From positions 1 to 33,463 of the forward strand of contig JAJDOA010000287.1 of assembly GCA_022340405.1 (NCBI GenBank): a stretch of DNA of 33,463 bases, in the 5' to 3' direction. The notes under the pieces were generated by a model. That model ran no database searches and had not been told where the DNA came from. It saw only the letters and a program-made list of their open reading frames with translations. The position numbers and the translations under genes are program-made. This DNA is from Desulfobacteraceae bacterium. GTDB lineage: Bacteria; Desulfobacterota; Desulfobacteria; Desulfobacterales; JAJDOA01. Each line of letters begins with the position of its first letter. Position 1 is the stretch's first letter. Positions 3,095 to 21,990 of the stretch are shown here, piece after piece.

Positions 3095-4387
3095 CTATCC
3101 GTTGCCGTTGCGCTGATCGAACACGCGCCGGCTCTTGCGCTCGGTTCGTGGAAGACTTTCGGGGTCGACGATTTCGGCCTGGCACCGCACCAAAATCTTT
3201 CTTCGGATTTCCGATTGTACCGATTCGGCCAGGGTTTGGCTGTCTTGCCGTGCCGTTTCGGGTCGACGTTCCACCCGGATGATCATCTGGTCTCTACCGT
3301 CCGTCCGGTGTCGAAGGTGGATCTGATACTCGCTGCCGATGCCATCGATGCGGCTGAGAACGTGATCGATCTGACTGGGATAGATGTTAACCGCCCGGTA
3401 GATGAACATATCGTCGGTCCGCCCCAATATGCGGTCGTGGCGGGGCATCGGGCTGCCGCAGGCGCAGGTTCCCTCCATCAGCCGGGTGATGTCGTGGGTG
3501 CGATAGCGGATCAGCGGACTCGCCTCCTTGGACAGGGTGGTGACCACCAGCTCTCCAGGTTCACCCGGGGAAACCGGCTCCAGGGTTTCCGGGTTCAGCA
3601 CCTCGAACAGGAACGCATCGGCCCAGTAGTGGATGCCGTCGTGGTGGCGGCAGTCGATTCCGGTGCCCGGTCCGTACAGCTCGGTCAATCCGTAGATGTC
3701 GTGGATGTGCTCCACCCCCATCAACTCCCGGATCCGGTTGCGCATGGCTTCGCTGTGGCGCTCGGCTCCCATGATGATGGTGTGTACACGAATGGCCGAA
3801 CGCAGATTCCGGCGGTGGATCTCTTCGGCCAGCAGCAGGGCCATGGAGGCCGTGGAACAGAAAGCCGTGGGCTGCAGATCCACCATCATTTCACAGTGCA
3901 TGTCGGCGTTTGCGGGGCCCAGCGGAACGGCCATGGCGCCGAAGCGCTCGCAACCCGCCTGGAAACCGGCCCCGGCCGTCCACAGGCCGTATCCCACCGC
4001 AATTTGCACCCGGTCGGATCGACTCAGCCCGGCCATTTCATAGCAGCGCGCAAACAGATCCGCCCAGCGGTCCACGTCTCGTTGGGTGTAGACCAGCACT
4101 TTCCTTTTGCCTGTGGTTCCGGAGGAGGCATGGATGCGGACTACGTCCTCCAGCGGCACGGAAAGTAGCGGAAAGGGGTATTCTTCCTGCAGGTCTTCCT
4201 TGTCCAGGGTGGGCAGTCGGGACAGATCCTCCAAGGTTCGGATGTCCTCCGGCCGCACACCGGCCGTTTCCATCCTTCCTCGATAAAATGGGGAGTTTTC
4301 ATAGCAGTGGGAAACCGTCCACTGCAGGCCCTCGAGCTGCATCGCCTGCAGCTTTTCCGGTCTCAATTCATCGGGTAGAAAGCGCAT
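3095..4387 (-). CDS. Phenylacetate-CoA ligase (PaaK) family arylacetate-CoA ligase
   Basis: An AMP-forming acid:CoA ligase of about 430 residues, the normal PaaK length. Visible motifs are the nucleotide loop ASSGTTGKRK (about residues 87-96), IYGLTE, the hinge-region YRTHD (usually YRTGD in the family) and the C-terminal CxCG...RILGRTDDM segment. The start is the ATG at 4387, preceded by AAGGAG; the frame runs further upstream but only through the neighbouring repeat and iorB shadow. The family activates phenylacetate or similar aryl acids to CoA esters with ATP. Lying next to iorAB, the likely substrate is indoleacetate, phenylacetate or hydroxyphenylacetate. The gene is separated from iorB by foldback repeat copy A, and from dctP by 177 nt that hold a short hairpin (3000-3022) without a T-run. 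Confidence 0.92.
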   Translation of the reverse strand: MRFLPDELRPEKLQAMQLEGLQWTVSHCYENSPFYRGRMETAGVRPEDIRTLEDLSRLPTLDKEDLQEEYPFPLLSVPLEDVVRIHASSGTTGKRKVLVYTQRDVDRWADLFARCYEMAGLSRSDRVQIAVGYGLWTAGAGFQAGCERFGAMAVPLGPANADMHCEMMVDLQPTAFCSTASMALLLAEEIHRRNLRSAIRVHTIIMGAERHSEAMRNRIRELMGVEHIHDIYGLTELYGPGTGIDCRHHDGIHYWADAFLFEVLNPETLEPVSPGEPGELVVTTLSKEASPLIRYRTHDITRLMEGTCACGSPMPRHDRILGRTDDMFIYRAVNIYPSQIDHVLSRIDGIGSEYQIHLRHRTDGRDQMIIRVERRPETARQDSQTLAESVQSEIRRKILVRCQAEIVDPESLPRTERKSRRVFDQRNGNG

Positions 4388-4425
4388 ATTGGACTCCTTG
4401 TGGCCCTTGCGTCCTATGGGGATTC

Positions 4426-4571
4426 TAGAAGCGATCTCAAAATTGTCTTTTCGTCCCATCTCGGCGTCGGGTCCTCGTTTCCAGTCCTCGAAATACAGAC
4501 GTATTCCTGTGGCTGGAAACTCGGATCCTCCTTGACCTGGAACGAAAATCCTAATTTTGAGATCGCTTCTA
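4426..4571. repeat. Foldback (MITE-like) repeat, copy A
   Basis: A 146-bp element with perfect 19-bp terminal inverted repeats: TAGAAGCGATCTCAAAATT (4426-4444) and its complement (4553-4571). The inverted similarity continues inward on both arms almost to the centre, so the transcript can fold into one long imperfect hairpin. TA occurs at both outer ends, as expected of a TA target duplication. It sits directly against the iorB stop and 38 nt upstream of the CoA-ligase start. It is inverted relative to copies B and C. Confidence 0.85.
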
Positions 4572-5159
4572 CTACACTTTGCCGTCTTGGCTATCCGCCT
4601 CGTTGTCGGGAAATGCCTGGGTGCGGACGCCTGCCTCCAGGGCCTGCATGGACTTCTCCAGCAGATCCGGTCTGCCGGCCAGAGACTGCTCCACGGCATC
4701 CCGCAGACCTTGTACCGATACGAAGAGTCCGCCGCTCGCCTGCAGGGAGGACGCGGCGGCTCCCAGCAACACGAGGTTGGCCGATCGGGGGACGCCCAGC
4801 CCGGCGGCGATCCGGTCGGCATCCACGCAGCAAGTCCCGGGGCACGACGAAGCCGAGCCGTGGGGTGAGTTGATGACAGTCCATGCCCCCGTTTTGCAGT
4901 AGTCACCATGGATGGGCACGTTTTCCGGCTTCAGGACCAGCAGACCGTCGGCCGTGGCCGGACGGATCAGGGGACTGTAGAAGCGGCCCACCTTCAAATG
5001 ACTCACCACTGTCCCACCGCGCTGCGCCATGCCGTGCGTCTCCGAGGTGATCACCGGAAGGCCTTTGGCCATGGCGGCCAGTGCAAGCACCCGCGTGACG
5101 AACAGCACACCCTGTCCTCCAACACCGCTGATGACGATTTGTTGACGGACCGATTCCAC
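4572..5159 (-). CDS. iorB: Indolepyruvate:ferredoxin oxidoreductase, beta subunit
   Basis: A 195-residue gamma/beta-type subunit of a 2-oxoacid:ferredoxin oxidoreductase. It begins with the family signature IVISGVGGQGVLFVTRVLA and continues with SETHGMAQRGGTVVSHLKVG, both characteristic of IorB. With IorA it interconverts arylpyruvate plus CoA with arylacetyl-CoA, CO2 and reduced ferredoxin. I chose the GTG at 5159 because AGGGAGGG lies about 7 nt upstream; a GTG eight codons earlier is possible. No ATG fits the conserved N-terminus. It is separated from iorA by about 230 nt, most of which is foldback copy B, and its stop abuts copy A. Intact length and motifs argue that it is functional despite the flanking insertions. 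Confidence 0.92.
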   Translation of the reverse strand: MESVRQQIVISGVGGQGVLFVTRVLALAAMAKGLPVITSETHGMAQRGGTVVSHLKVGRFYSPLIRPATADGLLVLKPENVPIHGDYCKTGAWTVINSPHGSASSCPGTCCVDADRIAAGLGVPRSANLVLLGAAASSLQASGGLFVSVQGLRDAVEQSLAGRPDLLEKSMQALEAGVRTQAFPDNEADSQDGKV

Positions 5160-5197
5160 CCCTGATTCCCTCCCTTTCACACGTTGCCGGCCATTTC

Positions 5198-5392
5198 TAG
5201 AAGCGATCTCAAAATTAGGATTTTCGTTCAAGGTCAAGGAGGATCCGAGTTTTGAAAACTCCCCGCCGCAAGCAGCGGGGAATGCGCTCGCTGTTGCCGT
5301 TCCAGCCGCAGGAATACTGCTGTATTTCGAGGACTGGAAACGAGGACCCGCCGCCGAGATTGGGCGAAAAGACAATTTTGAGATGGCTTCTA
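5198..5392. repeat. Foldback (MITE-like) repeat, copy B, with a nested 50-bp insert
   Basis: 195 bp with ends TAGAAGCGATCTCAAAATT (5198 onward) and CAATTTTGAGATGGCTTCTA (to 5392). It matches copies A (reverse orientation) and C along its whole length. It differs by about 50 extra bases (roughly 5256-5306) that contain their own hairpin, CCCCGC...GCGGGG. The right end overlaps the end of iorA: the TAG of the element's terminal TAGAAG, read on the minus strand, is the iorA stop codon. Confidence 0.85.
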
Positions 5393-7201
5393 CCCACATT
5401 GCCGGATTGCCTCCTTGGGGCAAACCTCCGCGCAAACGCCGCAGCGAACGCAGAGGACCGGGTCGATGCGGATCGGTTCTCCCTCGCCCTCCGGGACCAG
5501 GGCCGGGCACTCGAAATGCTCCAGGCACCACCCACAGCCGTCGCAGGCTTCCGTCACCTCCACCGCCCGATCCAAAACGCTGTTGTCTCGAACGGACCGG
5601 CCCAGAAGGCAAGGATGCCTGGCGATGACCACGGCGGGTCCGTTGTTTCGGGCAAATCGAACCGCTTCCCGCACCGTGGCGGTGAAGGACTTGACTTCAT
5701 ACGGATCTCCGGTTCGGCAAAACGTCACGCCGCATCCCCGTACCAGGTTCTCCAGCGGCACCGCCAGTCCGTCACTGCCGTCGGAGGTCGTATCGTCGGC
5801 CGGTGTGGGCTGGTTGCCGGTCATGGCCGTGGTGCGGTTGTCCAGAATCACCAGTGTGAAACGAACCCGGTTGTGCACGGCATCGATCAGGGCGGGTACA
5901 CCGGCGTGATAAAAGGTGGAGTCCCCGATGGTGGCGACGATGTCGCGCGGCTTGGGTTCGTTTTTAAAAGCATGATGGAAGCCGGCCGCCTGGCCGATGG
6001 CTGCGCCCATGCACAACACCGTGTCCACCGCCCCCAGGTTCAGGCCGAGTGTGTAGCAGCCGATGTCGCTGGTGTAGATTCCCCGGGGAGCTGCCTTTCG
6101 AATGGCGAAAAAGCTTGCCCGGTGCGGGCATCCCGGACAGAGCGTCGGTCGGCGTCCGCCGGCGGCGGGCAGAACGGCCGCGGGTAACTGTTTGCCCGAA
6201 AACGTGGCGATCCGCTCGGCAATGACCTCCGGAAGCAGCTCTCCCACCGAACCGACCGTACCGTCCATCTTTCCCCTGCACCGGCGACGATCGGCGATCT
6301 GCATTTCGATGACGCCGGTGGTCTCTTCCAGAACCAGAATCTCTTCGTACCGGCGGAGAAGGTGGTCGATAAAGTCGGTGTGGAGAGGGTAGGGTTGAAA
6401 CACCTGGTAGAGCGGCAGCGTCTGCTCCAGTTCGAGATCTCGGATCGCCTCGCGGGCGTGGGCGGCGGCCACACCGGATACGACCACCGCTCGTTTTCCC
6501 TGCGCGGCGGGGTGGAGAAGAGCCGGTGCGGTGTCGGAATGGGCGGCGATGCGGGCGATCTTTTTCTCCAGTCCGCGGTGCAGCTGCAAACGGAATTTCG
6601 GGGTGGCGGCCCATCGGGCGGGATCCCGGTCGAATGCGGCGCTGCGGACCGGACCCTCGACAGGTAGCAAGGGTAGGCTCTGCCTCGCATGGCACACCCG
6701 GGTGGTCGGTCTCAGCATCACAGGGATTTCGAAGGTTTCCGAAAGACGGAAGGCTGCGGCGATCAGCTTCCTGGCGTGATCCGGAGAACTCGGGTCCAGG
6801 ACGGGAATTTTGGCCGCCATGGCCAGCAATCGGCTGTCCTGTTCGGTCTGGGAGGAGTGGGGGCCCGGATCATCGGCGGAAATGACCACCAATCCGCCCC
6901 GAACCCCCATGTAAGCGGCGCTCATCAACGGATCGGAAGCCACGTTCAGACCGACCTGCTTCATGCTCACAGCCGCCCGCAGACCGGTCATGGCGGCTGC
7001 GTAGGCGATCTCGAAGGCAACCTTCTCGTTGACGGCCCACTGGACGTGCCGCAGGCTGCCTTGTTCGCGCTGTAGCTGCAGTACGGCCGCCAGGATTTCC
7101 GAAGCCGGCGTTCCCGGATAGGATGTCGCCACAGCGCATCCATTTTCCACGAGTCCGCGGGCTATCGCTTCGTTGCCGAGCATGAGTGCCAATTGCGCCA
7201 C
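5390..7201 (-). CDS. iorA: Indolepyruvate:ferredoxin oxidoreductase, alpha subunit
   Basis: A 603-residue thiamine-diphosphate and iron-sulfur enzyme subunit. The N-terminal pyrimidine-binding domain starts LMLGNEAIARGLVENGCAVATSYPGTPASEI. The TPP domain carries CPGCPHRASFFAI, DIGCYTLG and IGDSTFYHAGV. The C-terminus has two ferredoxin-type clusters (CDGCGWC... and CVRCGVCAEVCPKEAI). IOR reversibly oxidises arylpyruvates to arylacetyl-CoA; some archaea and rumen anaerobes use such an enzyme in reverse to make aromatic amino acids from aryl acids. I chose the GTG at 7201, which has AAAGGGAGGGG 6 nt upstream and fits the family N-terminus; a TTG at 7228 is the longer, poorer choice because it overlaps the terminator T-run. 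The stop lies in foldback copy B. Expression should depend on read-through of the leader terminator just upstream. Confidence 0.95.
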   Translation of the reverse strand: MAQLALMLGNEAIARGLVENGCAVATSYPGTPASEILAAVLQLQREQGSLRHVQWAVNEKVAFEIAYAAAMTGLRAAVSMKQVGLNVASDPLMSAAYMGVRGGLVVISADDPGPHSSQTEQDSRLLAMAAKIPVLDPSSPDHARKLIAAAFRLSETFEIPVMLRPTTRVCHARQSLPLLPVEGPVRSAAFDRDPARWAATPKFRLQLHRGLEKKIARIAAHSDTAPALLHPAAQGKRAVVVSGVAAAHAREAIRDLELEQTLPLYQVFQPYPLHTDFIDHLLRRYEEILVLEETTGVIEMQIADRRRCRGKMDGTVGSVGELLPEVIAERIATFSGKQLPAAVLPAAGGRRPTLCPGCPHRASFFAIRKAAPRGIYTSDIGCYTLGLNLGAVDTVLCMGAAIGQAAGFHHAFKNEPKPRDIVATIGDSTFYHAGVPALIDAVHNRVRFTLVILDNRTTAMTGNQPTPADDTTSDGSDGLAVPLENLVRGCGVTFCRTGDPYEVKSFTATVREAVRFARNNGPAVVIARHPCLLGRSVRDNSVLDRAVEVTEACDGCGWCLEHFECPALVPEGEGEPIRIDPVLCVRCGVCAEVCPKEAIRQCG

Positions 7202-7226
7202 CGGAAACCCCTCCCTTTCGATCGCC

Positions 7227-7252
7227 AAAAAAAAAGGCCGCTTTCGCGGCCC
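7227..7252 (-). terminator. Leader terminator (attenuator) upstream of iorA
   Basis: On the minus strand GGCCGC (7251-7246), loop GAAA, GCGGCC (7241-7236) is followed at once by nine T (7235-7227). This is a textbook rho-independent terminator. It lies after the Trp-rich leader peptide and only about 26 nt before the iorA start, so it can only act as a regulatory stop for the operon. The 5' arm GGGCCGC (7252-7246) can pair instead with GCGGTCC (7283-7277), 7 bp with one G-U, giving an antiterminator. Confidence 0.93.
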
Positions 7253-7272
7253 TCGTCATATGCTTGCTGTAC

Positions 7273-7408
7273 CCATGGACCGCTCCGTTTCGACTTTCGA
7301 AGCCGTCCACGTCTGTGAATGCGATGGTTGTTTCGCTTGGATGCAACAGTGGTGGAAAGCTTCAACCGATGCGCCACCACCACCAGAACGTAACCATACG
7401 GTCCATGG
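7273..7408. repeat. 10-bp inverted repeat linking leader start codon and antiterminator strand
   Basis: CCATGGACCG at plus 7273-7282 is the exact reverse complement of CGGTCCATGG at 7399-7408. In the minus-strand RNA this lets the leader peptide start (CC-AUG-GAC-CG) pair with the strand that otherwise forms the antiterminator. It could couple leader translation initiation to terminator formation; that role is inferred. Confidence 0.6.
7362..7406 (-). CDS. Tryptophan-rich leader peptide MDRMVTFWWWWRIG
   Basis: The ATG at 7406-7404 is preceded by AGGAG with 6-nt spacing and opens a 14-codon frame ending in TGA (7364-7362). Codons 8-11 are four consecutive TGG (Trp), preceded by Phe. Length, Trp run, ribosome site, position after a promoter and position before an attenuator match the logic of the E. 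coli trp leader, which is also 14 residues but has two Trp. The peptide itself probably has no function; its translation speed senses charged tRNA-Trp. It is the key regulatory element of the downstream iorAB-ligase-dctPQM group. Confidence 0.92.
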   Translation of the reverse strand: MDRMVTFWWWWRIG

Positions 7409-7440
7409 TCTGCTCCTGCTATGTCCGCAACAGTAGGTCT

Positions 7441-7469
7441 CCTGTAGCCGAGGCCGTTCTTTTTGTCAA
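7441..7469 (-). promoter_or_regulatory. Probable sigma70-type promoter of the ior operon leader
   Basis: On the minus strand a perfect TTGACA (-35, 7469-7464) is followed after 17 nt by TACAGG (-10, 7446-7441; a weak match). Transcription would begin near 7434, about 28 nt before the leader peptide ATG, which is consistent with a short attenuator leader. Confidence 0.65.
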
Positions 7470-7532
7470 GCACCAATCGCCGCCGGGGCGATTCCGCTGG
7501 CCCGGCCGAGGACGAATGTGTTACCCTGCCTA

Positions 7533-7676
7533 TAAGCTATCTCAAAATTAGGATTTTCGTTCCAGGTCAAGAAGGATCCGAGTTTTCAACCGCAGGAATA
7601 CTGCTGTATTTCGAGGACTGGAAACGAGGACTCGACGCCGAGATGGGACGAAAAGACAATTTTGAAACAGCTTCTA
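7533..7676. repeat. Foldback (MITE-like) repeat, copy C
   Basis: 144 bp in the same orientation as copy B. It begins TATAAGCTATCTCAAAATT (one end base and one inner base differ from the others) and ends at CTTCTA (7671-7676). The body matches copies A and B through GATCCGAG, GGAATACTGCTGTATTTCGAG and CGAAAAGACAATTTTGA. It occupies the divergent gap between the ior leader promoter and the molybdopterin oxidoreductase gene, so it may also supply or separate promoters. The rest of the gap (7470-7532) shows nothing I can assign. Confidence 0.85.
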
Positions 7677-7709
7677 CTGTCGTTTTCTTCACTCGGATCC
7701 AAGCACGCC

Positions 7710-9737
7710 ATGACAGCGATAACCACCGTCTGCGCCCGGGACTGCTACGACAGCTGCTCCCTCCAAGCGATAGCGAACGCCGCCGGGGAAATCGTCTCCC
7801 TCAAGGGAGATCCGCGTCATCCGATCACCCAGGGCTTTGCCTGCCCCCGGGGAATCGCCGACCTTCGGCGGCTGACCACCGGCCGCATTGCGCACCCCTA
7901 CATCCGCGCCAAGGGGGGATTTCGAAGGGTCGGCTGGGACGAAGCCCTGGACCGGACTGCCGAACACCTCCAGAGCACGCTGGATGACCGCGGGCCTGCG
8001 TCCGCATTGCTGCTGGACTATGCCGGGAACATGGGACTGCTCAGCAGCATATTCCCCCGGCGTTTGTGGAGCGCTGTGGGCGCCACCTTCACCGACGGTG
8101 GCATCTGCAGCCGGGCGGGAGCGGAAGGCATCCGGTTGCACTACGGCGACGCCTTCGGAATGGACCCCCTCCGGCTTTCCTCGCGAGATCTTGCCGTCTT
8201 CTGGGGCTTCAACGCCGCTGTCAGCGCTCCTCATCTCTGGTATCGGGTGCGGAAGGCGAGGGCTACGAGAGGCACGCGCATCGTTGTGGTGGATTCCCGC
8301 CGCAGCGAGACGTCCCGCCGGGCCGACCGGTTCGTCCAGCCCGCTCCGGGTACCGACGTGGCGCTGGTGTACGGCCTGGTCAACCGTCTGATCCGATCCG
8401 GGCGGGCCGACACCGCGTTTCTTCGGAACTGGAGCGAGGGGTATGAACATCTGCGCGGGGAAGCCATGCGGTGGAATCCGGATAGGGTTGCCGAACGGAC
8501 CGGCGTAAGGCCTGGGGAGCTGGCGGGGCTTGCGGATGCCTATGCGGAATCCGAGCAGCCGGCGACACTTATCGGAATCGGCTTGCAGAAAAACAACCAC
8601 GGCGGCGATCAGGCGCGTGCGGTGTCGCTCGTTCCCGCTGTGCTGGGGCAGCATCGAGGCTTCTATTACAGCCGGGGGGCCGCGCACCCGGTGGATTTGC
8701 GATATCTGGCCGGCACCTCCCAGGCCGACGTCCCGCCTCCGACGGTATCCCAGGTGGGTCTGGCCGGATCGATGGATGCGGGCACCTACGGCCTGGTTTT
8801 CGTCAGCTGTATGAATCCCGCTGTGACGATGCCGAATCAACGGATCTTCCGTCGGGGTTTGGAGCGCCCGGACCTGACTTGCATCGTATGCGACAGCCAC
8901 TGGACGGAAACGGCGCGGATTGCCGACATCGTACTGCCGGCGCTGACCTACCTGGAAAAGGAAGATCTCGTACTTCCCTGGGGACACGATTTTTTGCAGC
9001 GATCCCGGCGGGTCGCTGCTCCCGCCACCGAGGGCCGGTGCGAGACGGAGATCATGGCAGCGCTGTCCGGACGGCTTCGCCGTACGGAACCCTGGCTGTA
9101 CGAGGACCCCTGGGAAGCGCTCCGGACCGCGACGCTGCCCGCAGTGAAGGAGGGCGACTGGGACGCACTCCTGGCCGGTGAACGCATCCCAATGGTCGCC
9201 AAACCGGACAACGTGTACCCGACGCCTTCCGGGAAAATCGAACTGTCCGCCGCCGCCGCACCCCGCTACGGACTGGCGGCCCTGCCGCTCGCGGCCGAAC
9301 AACCATCTACCGACGATCGGGAGCGTTTTGTCCTGCTCAACAGCGCCTCACGCCGGTACACCAGCACGCAGTTTCAGGAGGTCTACGGCCCCATCCCCCC
9401 GGAGGTCGTGGTGAACCCAAAGGATGCCGCCGGATGCGGTGTGCGTGAAGGGGATACCGTGGTGCTGGCCAATCGCCGCGGGCGGATCCGCTTGCGGGCG
9501 AAAATTGCCGACAGTGTGCCCGAAGGCGTATTGTGGTCACCGCGGCAGTGCCTGGACCTGGACGGAAAGCCCCAGAATCTTCTTACCAGCAGTCGGCCCC
9601 AGGCCGTCGGAAACGGCTCGCGTTTCAATGCCACCCGGGTGAATCTTTTGCCGGGGTCGGCCGGGATGAGAGAGCCAATCGACGGATCCAACCCCGCTTC
9701 GGATTCACGGGTAGGGACCGGAGGAGAGCCCCCATGA
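7710..9737 (+). CDS. Molybdopterin-dependent oxidoreductase (DMSO reductase family)
   Basis: About 675 residues. The N-terminal [4Fe-4S] motif C8-x3-C12-x3-C16-x28-C45 is followed by a molybdopterin-binding body and a C-terminal dinucleotide-binding domain (GVREGDTVVLANRRGRIRLRAKI). The likely metal-ligand region is GGICSRAGAEG (Cys133/Ser134). There is no twin-arginine signal, so the enzyme looks cytoplasmic. The ATG at 7710 begins the conserved TTVCARDCYDSC; an upstream in-frame TTG at 7662 would start inside repeat copy C. The ribosome site is poor. No electron-transfer subunit follows, only a small membrane protein translationally coupled through ATGA. The substrate is unknown. The family includes formate dehydrogenases, polysulfide and thiosulfate reductases and many uncharacterised members. 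Confidence 0.88.
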   Translation: MTAITTVCARDCYDSCSLQAIANAAGEIVSLKGDPRHPITQGFACPRGIADLRRLTTGRIAHPYIRAKGGFRRVGWDEALDRTAEHLQSTLDDRGPASALLLDYAGNMGLLSSIFPRRLWSAVGATFTDGGICSRAGAEGIRLHYGDAFGMDPLRLSSRDLAVFWGFNAAVSAPHLWYRVRKARATRGTRIVVVDSRRSETSRRADRFVQPAPGTDVALVYGLVNRLIRSGRADTAFLRNWSEGYEHLRGEAMRWNPDRVAERTGVRPGELAGLADAYAESEQPATLIGIGLQKNNHGGDQARAVSLVPAVLGQHRGFYYSRGAAHPVDLRYLAGTSQADVPPPTVSQVGLAGSMDAGTYGLVFVSCMNPAVTMPNQRIFRRGLERPDLTCIVCDSHWTETARIADIVLPALTYLEKEDLVLPWGHDFLQRSRRVAAPATEGRCETEIMAALSGRLRRTEPWLYEDPWEALRTATLPAVKEGDWDALLAGERIPMVAKPDNVYPTPSGKIELSAAAAPRYGLAALPLAAEQPSTDDRERFVLLNSASRRYTSTQFQEVYGPIPPEVVVNPKDAAGCGVREGDTVVLANRRGRIRLRAKIADSVPEGVLWSPRQCLDLDGKPQNLLTSSRPQAVGNGSRFNATRVNLLPGSAGMREPIDGSNPASDSRVGTGGEPP

Positions 9738-20424: not shown

Positions 20425-21990
20425 TTGGCTTTCGAATTCTTCAACGAAGCATATGCCGGCGGTATAAAGGCAATCACCATTGGCGCCGGAGACAAGGCCG
20501 TCACGGTCGGGGGGGAAACCTGCTATCCATTTTACCAGTTTGAAGGAGACATGCCCCACAAGCCCAAAGTGGCAATGGAGGTCTGGGACATGGAACCGGA
20601 GGACTGGGCGGAAGCCGCCTTGGAACCGTTCAAGGACGTGGTTTCCGACCCGGCGGCATGGGCCAAGAAGTGCGTCGAGGAATACGGCGCGGAAATCATC
20701 GTGCTGCAGCTCAAGAGCACCGACCCCAACGGAAAGAATGCCAGCGCGGACGAGGCCGCCGCAACGGTGAAGAAGGTGGCCGACGCCGTCGACGTCCCCT
20801 TGGTGGTCTGGGGCGTGGCCAACGTCGAAAAGGATGAAGAGGTCCTAAAGAAAGTGGCGGAGGAGTGCCAGGACAAGACCCTCGTTCTCGGTCCCGTGGA
20901 GGACAAGAACCACAAGGGTATCGGGGCCGCTGCCATGGGCTACGGTCACCTGATCATTTCCTCATCACCCATCGACGTCAACCTGGCCAAACAGGTGAAC
21001 ATCCTGCTGGAGAACCTTGGCGTTTCCAAAGACGCTCTGCTGATCGACCCCACCACCGGCGGCCTGGGCTACGGCCTGGAGTATTCCTACTCGGTGATGG
21101 AGCGTATCCGAATGGCGGCCATGCAGCAGGGAGATGACAAGCTGCAGCTGCCCGTCATCAACAACCTCGGCAACGAAATCTGGAAGTGCAAAGAAGCCAA
21201 GCAGCCCCTGGACGAGGACCCCACATTGGGCGATCCGGAAAGACGCGGCATCCTGATGGAGGCCGTGGGTGCGGTGAGCTACCTCGTGGCCGGATCCGAC
21301 ATTCTGATCATGCGTCATCCCGAGTCCATCCGGCTGGTGAAGTCCTTCATCGATTTGGCCATCGACGGCGGATCCGCAAAGGACGTGGCGGGCATCGAAA
21401 AACGTCTGCCCGCATCGGAAATCGACTATGCGTCCCTGGCCCCCGAGCCGGATCTGACCATCGCCGAAGAAAAGAAAGCTGCGCCCAAGCCGGCGGCGAA
21501 GAAGGAAGCCCCGGCCGCAGCGAAGCCAGCGGCGAAAAAGCAGGCGGCGGCGCCCAAGCCCGCCCCGGAAGCCGCCCCGGCCCCCGCCGCGGAGGCCGCT
21601 GCGCCCAAGGCCGAAGACGAGGCGCAGAAGAAGGCAGACGCGGAGGCCAAGGCCAAGGCGGATGCGGAAGCCAAAGCCAAGGCGGAAGCCGAAGCCAAGA
21701 AGAAGGCCGAAGAAGATGCCAAGGCCAAGGCGGAGGCGGAGGCCAAAGCCAAAGCGGACGCGGAGGCCAAGGCCAAGGCCGAAGCGGAAGCCAAGGCCAA
21801 GGAAGCGGCCGCCAAGCGCGAAGCCGAAGAGGATGCCATCCGTCAGGCGAGAGCCAAAGAACGGGAAGAAGCGGCTGCAAAGCGAAGCACCCAGAAAACG
21901 GAGGAAGTGTCTCTTACCGCGGCTGCCGTCCAACAATCGGAGTTGGACAAAATGCTGTCCAGGCTCGATCGGATTCATCGACGGATATAA
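20425..21990 (+). CDS. acsD: Corrinoid iron-sulfur protein small subunit (CODH/ACS delta) with long Ala/Lys/Glu tail
   Basis: 521 residues against about 310-325 usual for the family. Residues 1-340 are the TIM-barrel core (KVAMEVWDMEPEDW, LKSTDPNGKNASADEAA, LLIDPTTGGLGYGLEYSYSVMERIRMAA, LPVINNLGNEIWKCKEA). Residues about 346-397 form a Pro/Ala/Lys linker. Residues about 398-487 are a run of KAKAEAEAK-like units that should form a long charged single helix, and residues 488-521 are a distinct end (SELDKMLSRLDRIHRRI). The start is TTG with AAGGAGGT about 5 nt upstream, and the N-terminus fits the family. With AcsC it carries the methyl group on cobalamin to acetyl-CoA synthase. It is the first gene of the acs operon. 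Confidence 0.92.
   Translation: MAFEFFNEAYAGGIKAITIGAGDKAVTVGGETCYPFYQFEGDMPHKPKVAMEVWDMEPEDWAEAALEPFKDVVSDPAAWAKKCVEEYGAEIIVLQLKSTDPNGKNASADEAAATVKKVADAVDVPLVVWGVANVEKDEEVLKKVAEECQDKTLVLGPVEDKNHKGIGAAAMGYGHLIISSSPIDVNLAKQVNILLENLGVSKDALLIDPTTGGLGYGLEYSYSVMERIRMAAMQQGDDKLQLPVINNLGNEIWKCKEAKQPLDEDPTLGDPERRGILMEAVGAVSYLVAGSDILIMRHPESIRLVKSFIDLAIDGGSAKDVAGIEKRLPASEIDYASLAPEPDLTIAEEKKAAPKPAAKKEAPAAAKPAAKKQAAAPKPAPEAAPAPAAEAAAPKAEDEAQKKADAEAKAKADAEAKAKAEAEAKKKAEEDAKAKAEAEAKAKADAEAKAKAEAEAKAKEAAAKREAEEDAIRQARAKEREEAAAKRSTQKTEEVSLTAAAVQQSELDKMLSRLDRIHRRI
21616..21885 (+). repeat. Degenerate in-frame repeat in acsD (KAKAEAEA units)
   Basis: GCC-AAG-GCC-AAG/GCG-GAA units recur in frame, coding the charged helix of the AcsD tail. 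The repeat is degenerate at DNA level, with synonymous changes between copies. That suggests selection on the protein and not recent slippage alone. Confidence 0.7.

Follow-up and report, generated by a model that had tools for sequence, protein, structure and literature searches.

Attenuators of the E. coli trpL type (Rfam family RF00513, Trp_leader) combine a short leader peptide that carries Trp codons in tandem, RNA helices that compete with one another, and an intrinsic terminator ahead of the first gene. Another arrangement is known from the his operon, whose attenuator has segments A to F that pair either as A:B, C:D and E:F or as B:C and D:E. The incorporation of indole-acetate into tryptophan by anaerobes is an old observation. 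To our knowledge, neither a Trp leader nor a TRAP importer goes with the aryl-acid route of Methanococcus maripaludis. In this archaeon, the indolepyruvate oxidoreductase (IOR) MMP0713/0714 and aryl acids form a second route to the aromatic amino acids, according to the excerpted text of PMC4162585. The sulfate reducer Desulfococcus multivorans is reported to produce a TRAP system and a CoA ligase when given phenylacetate/phenylpyruvate, and IorA3B3 when given phenylpyruvate. The excerpted main text of that source describes these genes as catabolic, and the word tryptophan is absent from it (PMC5109826).

The locus described here resembles each of these systems in part. It lies in a window of 33,463 nucleotides (the whole stretch of DNA that was analysed) from a Desulfobacteraceae bacterium, and its operon is read from the reverse strand. 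The first gene is iorA, the alpha subunit of indolepyruvate ferredoxin oxidoreductase (5390–7201, GTG start; TIGR03336, 628 bits against a curated cut-off of 650.9). It is followed by iorB for the beta subunit (4572–5162, start approximate; PRK06274, 196 bits, cut-off 227; PF01558) and by a PaaK-like aryl-CoA ligase gene (3095–4444, start approximate; TIGR02155, 410 bits, cut-off 646). As these NCBIfam scores lie under the curated cut-offs, the names IorA, IorB and PaaK are given at the family level. The remaining genes encode a TRAP transporter: dctP, a solute-binding protein near Desal_3247 and Dde_0634 (1895–2917), dctQ (1402–1893; PF04290) and dctM (101–1405; TIGR00786, 291 bits, cut-off 268). 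Thus, with names at that family level, the genes for an IOR, an aryl-CoA ligase and an aryl-acid importer adjoin in one operon. The IOR and the proposed aryl-acid route are shared with M. maripaludis, which differs in being archaeal (PMC4162585, in excerpt). The TRAP system, CoA ligase and IorAB are shared with a sulfate reducer, D. multivorans, in which they are described as catabolic (PMC5109826, in excerpt).

Some other features of the window may be recorded here. A repeat of about 150–200 bp occurs in three copies (4425–4572, 5197–5393 and 7530–7677), which flank iorB on both sides and lie upstream of the leader promoter, with 90–92% and 60–62% identity to the reference copy. A molybdopterin oxidoreductase ORF (7662–9737) is oriented divergently to the leader, and about 190 nt lie between its listed start and the promoter. 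Inside an Ala/Lys/Glu-rich ORF (20425–21990) there is a tandem array spaced at 24 nt (21562–21811).

The initial annotation had read, in front of iorA, a promoter-like TTGACA-17-TACAGG, an AGGAG placed 6 nt before the ATG of a 14-codon ORF, and a GGCCGC-GAAA-GCGGCC hairpin with nine T. All of these are present on the reverse strand. The putative promoter spans 7469–7441: the -35 hexamer TTGACA is exact (7464–7469), and after a 17-nt spacer comes the -10-like TACAGG (7441–7446), which is weak, agreeing with the consensus at 3 of 6 positions. At equal spacing, relatives have TATGGC (L005), TATGTA (L011) and TAAGGG (L006). A generic promoter scan of the window reported no site. When the top-scoring promoter-like site in front of each leader ORF was compared among 30 iorA leaders (that of the window and 29 further ones), the exact TTGACA was its first hexamer in 19. 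The Shine-Dalgarno sequence AGGAG (7413–7417) and the ORF MDRMVTFWWWWRIG, which begins with the ATG at 7406 and ends with the UGA at 7364–7362 (ORF 7362–7406), together occupy 7417–7362. The terminator hairpin with its nine T extends from 7254 to 7227, the position of the last T. The T run and the GTG of iorA at 7201 are 25 nt apart, and iorA has its own Shine-Dalgarno sequence, GGAGGGG (7208–7214).

Between the promoter and the terminator, six segments can be distinguished, all on the reverse strand. Segment A is the run of four tandem TGG (Trp) codons (7374–7385). Segment B, GAAGCTTTCCACCAC (7349–7363), overlaps the leader stop codon and can pair with A or C; segment C, GTGGACGGCTTC (7299–7310), with B or D; and segment D, CGGAGCGGTCCAT (7275–7287), with C or E. 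Segment E is the 5' arm of the terminator (7246–7254), and segment F is its 3' arm (7233–7241), which is overlapped by the T run (7235–7227). The CCACCAC that the initial annotation gave as the complement of the Trp codons does lie at 7355–7349. The layout drawn around it was incomplete: it has no contact with the terminator, and the segments at 7310–7299 and 7287–7275 stand between the two. In addition, the start-codon region of the leader, CCATGGACCG (7408–7399), is a perfect 10-nt complement of CGGTCCATGG (7282–7273), in and beside segment D.

The final hairpin E:F lies downstream of D, and D may pair with its 5' arm, which gives a third alternative helix. The switch is most aptly written as A:B, C:D and E:F for the off state, against B:C and D:E for the on state. 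A four-segment model was rejected for the window, where the first hairpin (C:D) has no U run; for the same reason, only the second hairpin can terminate transcription there. The trpL-type attenuator proposed in the initial annotation is supported in its kind, by the conservation of the peptide, the competing helices and the terminators and by the model search described below. It has to be redrawn in its architecture, with six segments in place of the four of E. coli, since the terminator is reached via an intermediate hairpin. Compared with trpL, the leader also differs in its target, iorAB-paaK-TRAP, and in its four Trp codons. The pairing cascade is the same as that of the his attenuator, with Trp codons in place of His codons.

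The operation of such a switch can be proposed as follows. When charged tRNA-Trp is plentiful, the ribosome would reach the UGA and cover B, so that C:D and E:F could form and transcription would end at the T run. When it is scarce, the ribosome would stall on the four UGG codons, B:C would form, and the free D would take E. F would then be left unpaired, and the operon would be transcribed. If the leader were untranslated, A:B would pair and the terminator would form again. With a ribosome footprint of the usual size, the coordinates place B (7363–7349) under a ribosome at the UGA (7364–7362) and leave it free beside a stalled one. The sequence and the comparisons below show the parts, their conservation, the covarying alternative helices and leaders of this type at trp genes; the response to tryptophan, the stall position, the substrate and the direction of the IOR reaction are inferred.

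Folding of the window sequence by itself gives a mixed picture. The terminator folds at -16.6 kcal/mol, a value equalled by none of 200 shuffles, and the leader from 7440 to 7229 has a folding z of -3.34. The A:B and B:C stretches are unexceptional, with 40 of 200 shuffles as good in each case, and so is the D:E helix GCGGUCC/GGGCCGC (-14.0 kcal/mol; 26/200 as low). Thus, the support for the switch is comparative. The minimum-free-energy folds of the leader were in the off state under all three maskings, including that for a stalled ribosome; the on state must therefore be kinetic, as is usual for attenuators.

Leaders of this kind are not confined to the window. In 57 other genomes, IorA was found at 59–68% identity in 20 cases and at 49% in two, and upstream of these genes stand the leaders MKPTCWWWWWQRP, MKHIFWWWWYKP, MKYLLWFWWWQP..., MIFQNWFWWRLNL, MRISMFWCWWWQP..., MMVRCWRWRGVL and MTHRQWRGWRQTT. 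More were seen among 80 named loci, for example the Syntrophales-type NLWWWWWGKKRGG and STGWWWWQKISGG. For a count, ORFs of at most 45 codons within 350 nt upstream of iorA were taken, in 106 regions that include a few duplicate genomes (L002/L031, L004/L033, L009/L036, L016/L051). At least three Trp in six codons occurred in 18 of the 106 regions, one of which (L072) looks like a chance ORF, against none of the 106 antisense regions and 32 of 1860 control windows. Four Trp occurred in 10/106, 0/106 and 3/1860, respectively. In 45 further genomes, a Trp ORF was counted upstream of iorA in 10 on the sense and 0 on the antisense strand, a count that scores G173, where a leader is present, and G116, where it precedes trpB2, as none; two weaker cases were accepted by context. 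The candidate MHWWG at L055 was dropped as a leader, having no terminator and no MHWWG in its relative L052.

On the IorA tree, the leader is patchy, being present in 22 of 66 rows and absent from 44, with the weak two-Trp leaders L065 and L077 kept in this count. This distribution takes 15 changes, and 16 of 500 shuffles were as low. The internal stop in the IorA translation of L032 was removed from its row. The comparison of leaders among iorA orthologues, suggested in the initial annotation, thus shows that the Trp run and the terminator are conserved, but patchily. By eye, many leaders have two terminator-like hairpins in series, the Syntrophales-type leaders have a single terminator, and L007, L011 and L015 have a U run already at the first hairpin. 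Three leaderless iorA copies (L004, L008 and L009) seem, also by eye, to be preceded by a gene ending in an ACT-like domain.

The competing helices are supported by covariation. In 16 rows, the consensus of the Desulfobacterales leaders after the Trp codons reads GAAGCTTGCTCACCACC (B), then CAGAGCCGTGAGAGGCTTC (C) and GAAGnGGCTCATGGCTC (D). Of the 11 pairs of B:C, 4 show changes on both sides, and 96.0% of cells are paired; of the 14 pairs of C:D, 6 show such changes, and 96.4% of cells are paired. The two helices are mutually exclusive, and for each of them the paired percentage and the covariation score were reached in 0 of 500 shuffles. In the shuffles for further pair types, B:C was at chance level (102/500) and C:D gave 11/500. 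The D:E helix was assessed by dealing the E segments among leaders, with kinship ignored and with segments cut by eye, as they were for B:C and for the folds of D:E alone. For 20 leaders (19 iorA, 1 trpE), the own duplexes total -372.4 kcal/mol, whereas dealt ones give -289.7 (sd 12.7); none of 20,000 permutations was as low, nor was any for the 14 iorA representatives. The same test for B:C gave 0/20,000 over 24 leaders; it was weaker within groups (512/20,000 for 12 Desulfobacterales and 120/20,000 for 6 other representatives).

The window scores 20.2 bits against RF00513, under the gathering cut-off of 41. Searched at E up to 1, 12 other leader loci gave no match to this family, and none of 58 genomes had one over the cut-off, the E. 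coli control being positive. A sub-threshold Trp_leader match of 32.4 bits (cut-off 41) was seen at L168 (G012:C7:59864-59966). A T-box or other known Rfam leader was rejected, as there is no Rfam match over cut-off in the whole window.

The leader is also found in front of tryptophan genes. The genome of the window has a second one, with WWWWW and two hairpins, before trpE, and this resembles that of iorA in its two hairpins and its D:E pairing. It lies at about 684–900 of L120 (G000:C307) and ends with HQWWWWWNCAPGLAQGSPPE, the 5' arm of the second hairpin pairing with the 3' arm of the first. In the order as a whole, Trp-rich leaders occur in 31 of 47 trpE upstream regions, against 3 of 47 antisense. 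For a wider search, 16 iorA leaders, and no others, were made into a covariance model, R1, with which whole genomes were scanned. At E<=0.1, it matched 29 places in 40 genomes: 5 at iorA, 9 at trpE, 2 at trpB2, 2 at DAHP synthase genes, and one each at trpD, ADH synthase and a stand-alone dctPQM, along with 8 that showed no leader on reading (G036 twice, G005:C217, G017, G037, G027:C6, G020 and G029). Here, trpE and iorA were assigned by position, and the trpB2 of G015 by ORF likeness only. In 231 genomes at E<=1e-4, there were 34 places: 18 at iorA, 5 at trpE (two of them by ORF likeness only), 4 at trpB2, 3 at paaK, 1 at dctPQM, a leader in G040 whose first gene is unclear, and 2 without a leader (G172, and G213 at a contig end). 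Among the 18 iorA matches, 13 are training rows of the model, and the peptide of G173 equals that of the training row L034. The whole-genome search did not recover the trpE leader of the window's own genome (G000).

Thus, leaders found by a model built on iorA precede trpE, trpD, trpB2 and DAHP-synthase genes of the same order. They share the Trp-rich peptide and differ in that they control genes of de novo tryptophan or shikimate synthesis. The genes of the window operon were met separately as well. In G012, the DctP encoded by the stand-alone dctPQM behind a leader (E 3.8e-15) shares 72% identity with that of the window, and the 6.1 kb read contain no ior. The ligases of three paaK loci behind a leader (E 9.7e-24 to 1.8e-22) are likewise 72% identical to the one in the window, and no IorA closer than 40% was found in these three genomes. 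In G116, where the leader precedes trpB2, the end of trpB2 lies about 235 nt before an IorA match. Every component of the window operon thus occurs by itself behind a Trp leader in at least one genome.

Several loci were noted alongside. At L302 and L303, as read from the ORFs, paaK is followed by ABC-transporter-like genes of the branched-chain type in place of TRAP genes. At L263 (G023:C99:42811), a Phe/Tyr/Trp-rich leader, NYFGFYWYFYNTG, with two hairpins stands before a gene for 2-amino-3,7-dideoxy-heptulosonate synthase; it may act as a mixed aromatic attenuator of a shikimate entry enzyme of the archaeal type. DAHP synthase genes lie behind Trp-rich leaders at L259 (FFWRWWWIS) and L272 (TIWRWWWQT), and at L274 (G015:C32:36055-36197) the leader MILHCWWWQMTK and two hairpins precede a trpB2-like ORF.

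Gene content was compared with the presence of the leader. In all 7 leader-bearing loci that were extended, iorB and dctPQM are downstream, with paaK between them in 4. Of 20 loci with a leader, 17 have TRAP genes downstream, as do 3 of the 26 leaderless ones (Fisher p 5.8e-7, kinship ignored), the loci being hand-chosen for enough downstream sequence, with L065 and L077 again included and L047, whose TRAP genes are upstream, scored as without. The leader loci L034 and L060 (contig ends) are outside this count, as are L031, L043, L055, L061, L069, L070 and further loci whose downstream sequence is short. The same applies to the more distant loci L079–L110, among which L093 has dctPQM-like genes at 30–49% identity and L102 a dctP-like gene.

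As for the substrate, the best solved relatives of DctP are 4n6d (Desal_3247, 56% identity, by fold comparison) and 4nap (Dde_0634, 46%). The entries 4pgn and 4pgp, which we take to be the protein of 4nap with indolepyruvate and indole-acetate, score almost like 4nap. Dde_0634 is reported to bind indole-3-acetic acid (PMC9973260 and PMC9543091, both in excerpt, the latter citing Vetting et al. 2015). The TRAP system would accordingly import indole-3-acetate or a similar aryl acid, PaaK would make the CoA ester, IorAB would reductively carboxylate it to indolepyruvate, and a transaminase would yield tryptophan. The reductive direction, from indole-acetate towards tryptophan, we infer from the regulation only. 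The initial annotation had held that the controlled genes are not tryptophan-synthesis genes. Taken with the co-regulated genes and a binding protein of the indole-acetate type, their regulation suggests instead a salvage pathway that supplies tryptophan.

Other explanations have to be weighed against this one. The main rival is catabolism, in which the attenuator is real, IorAB oxidises arylpyruvates, TRAP and PaaK import and activate phenylacetate as substrates for growth, and the leader serves only to signal growth rate or starvation. The genes made by D. multivorans on phenylacetate/phenylpyruvate (PMC5109826, in excerpt) and the related operons of Desulfospira and Desulfobacter, which have no leader, speak for it. 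To turn on a tryptophan-consuming pathway at uncharged tRNA-Trp would be counterproductive, however, and the same leader type precedes trpE, trpD, trpB2 and DAHP synthase, as well as paaK and dctPQM separately. Catabolism is unlikely for the operon of the window, and may hold for the leaderless copies. A plain four-segment attenuator, with the second hairpin as a constitutive back-up terminator, would suit the single terminator of the Syntrophales-type leaders and the U run at the first hairpin of L007, L011 and L015. The first hairpin of the window lacks a U run, however, and a constitutive second terminator would keep iorA off; together with the co-variation of D:E, this makes such a layout quite improbable.

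Less credible again is a leader without control in cis, whose hairpins end a stand-alone sRNA or a trans-acting peptide while iorA has a promoter of its own. A trans role has been published for the trp leader peptide of Sinorhizobium (PMC7298713, in excerpt), and the serial terminator-like hairpins of many leaders would fit it. Against it stand the mere 25 nt between the T run and iorA, the covariation of D:E, a pairing by which the last terminator would be undone, and the movement of the leader with different first genes. The simplest thought, a chance TGG repeat near an unrelated terminator, can draw on the 21 occurrences of four successive TGG in the 4.0 Mb genome (11 for the reversed pattern). 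Outside the window, these fall in 18 regions. In 17 of them, the run is enclosed by another open frame, 297 codons long or longer; the remaining one is the trpE leader. Conservation, covariation and the R1 matches at trp genes already refute this explanation, which retains a negligible chance.

The reading preferred here is that the region is a cis-acting, ribosome-mediated Trp attenuator of iorAB-paaK-dctPQM and that this operon is a salvage module for the supply of tryptophan, to which we give a probability of roughly 80%. The supply role would fit an operon that opens at uncharged tRNA-Trp, and the neighbours of this operon in the regulon are tryptophan and shikimate genes. The genes of the operon probably take up indole-acetic acid (auxin) and convert it to tryptophan, which in these relatives of the sulfate reducers would be a second, scavenging route. 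A broader statement is also favoured, with less assurance: Desulfobacterota would have a second, attenuator-controlled route to tryptophan via TRAP (in one genus perhaps ABC) transporters, a PaaK-like ligase and IorAB. The transporter, ligase, IOR, TrpB2 and the chorismate branch would form one RNA-controlled regulon, with its pieces separately behind Trp attenuators and the iorA form having six segments. The open literature, by the titles and beginnings of abstracts among the matches listed, gave no description of Trp attenuators that control ior, paaK or TRAP genes. The mechanism itself is known; what is apparently new, as far as the open literature shows, is the target operon, the spread over transporter, ligase and oxidoreductase, and the six segments with Trp codons.

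In sulfate reducers, the genes for IOR, PaaK and TRAP have so far been given a catabolic role (PMC5109826, in excerpt). A Trp attenuator is a sequence-based sign of direction: genes that are on when tryptophan is short should make tryptophan. If this is true, genes would be assigned to the anaerobic incorporation of indole-acetate into tryptophan, the auxin of sediments would be linked to amino-acid salvage, and a testable regulon would be named. The leader may mark which copies are biosynthetic, and leader models may be able to separate the salvage from the catabolic copies of the same enzymes.
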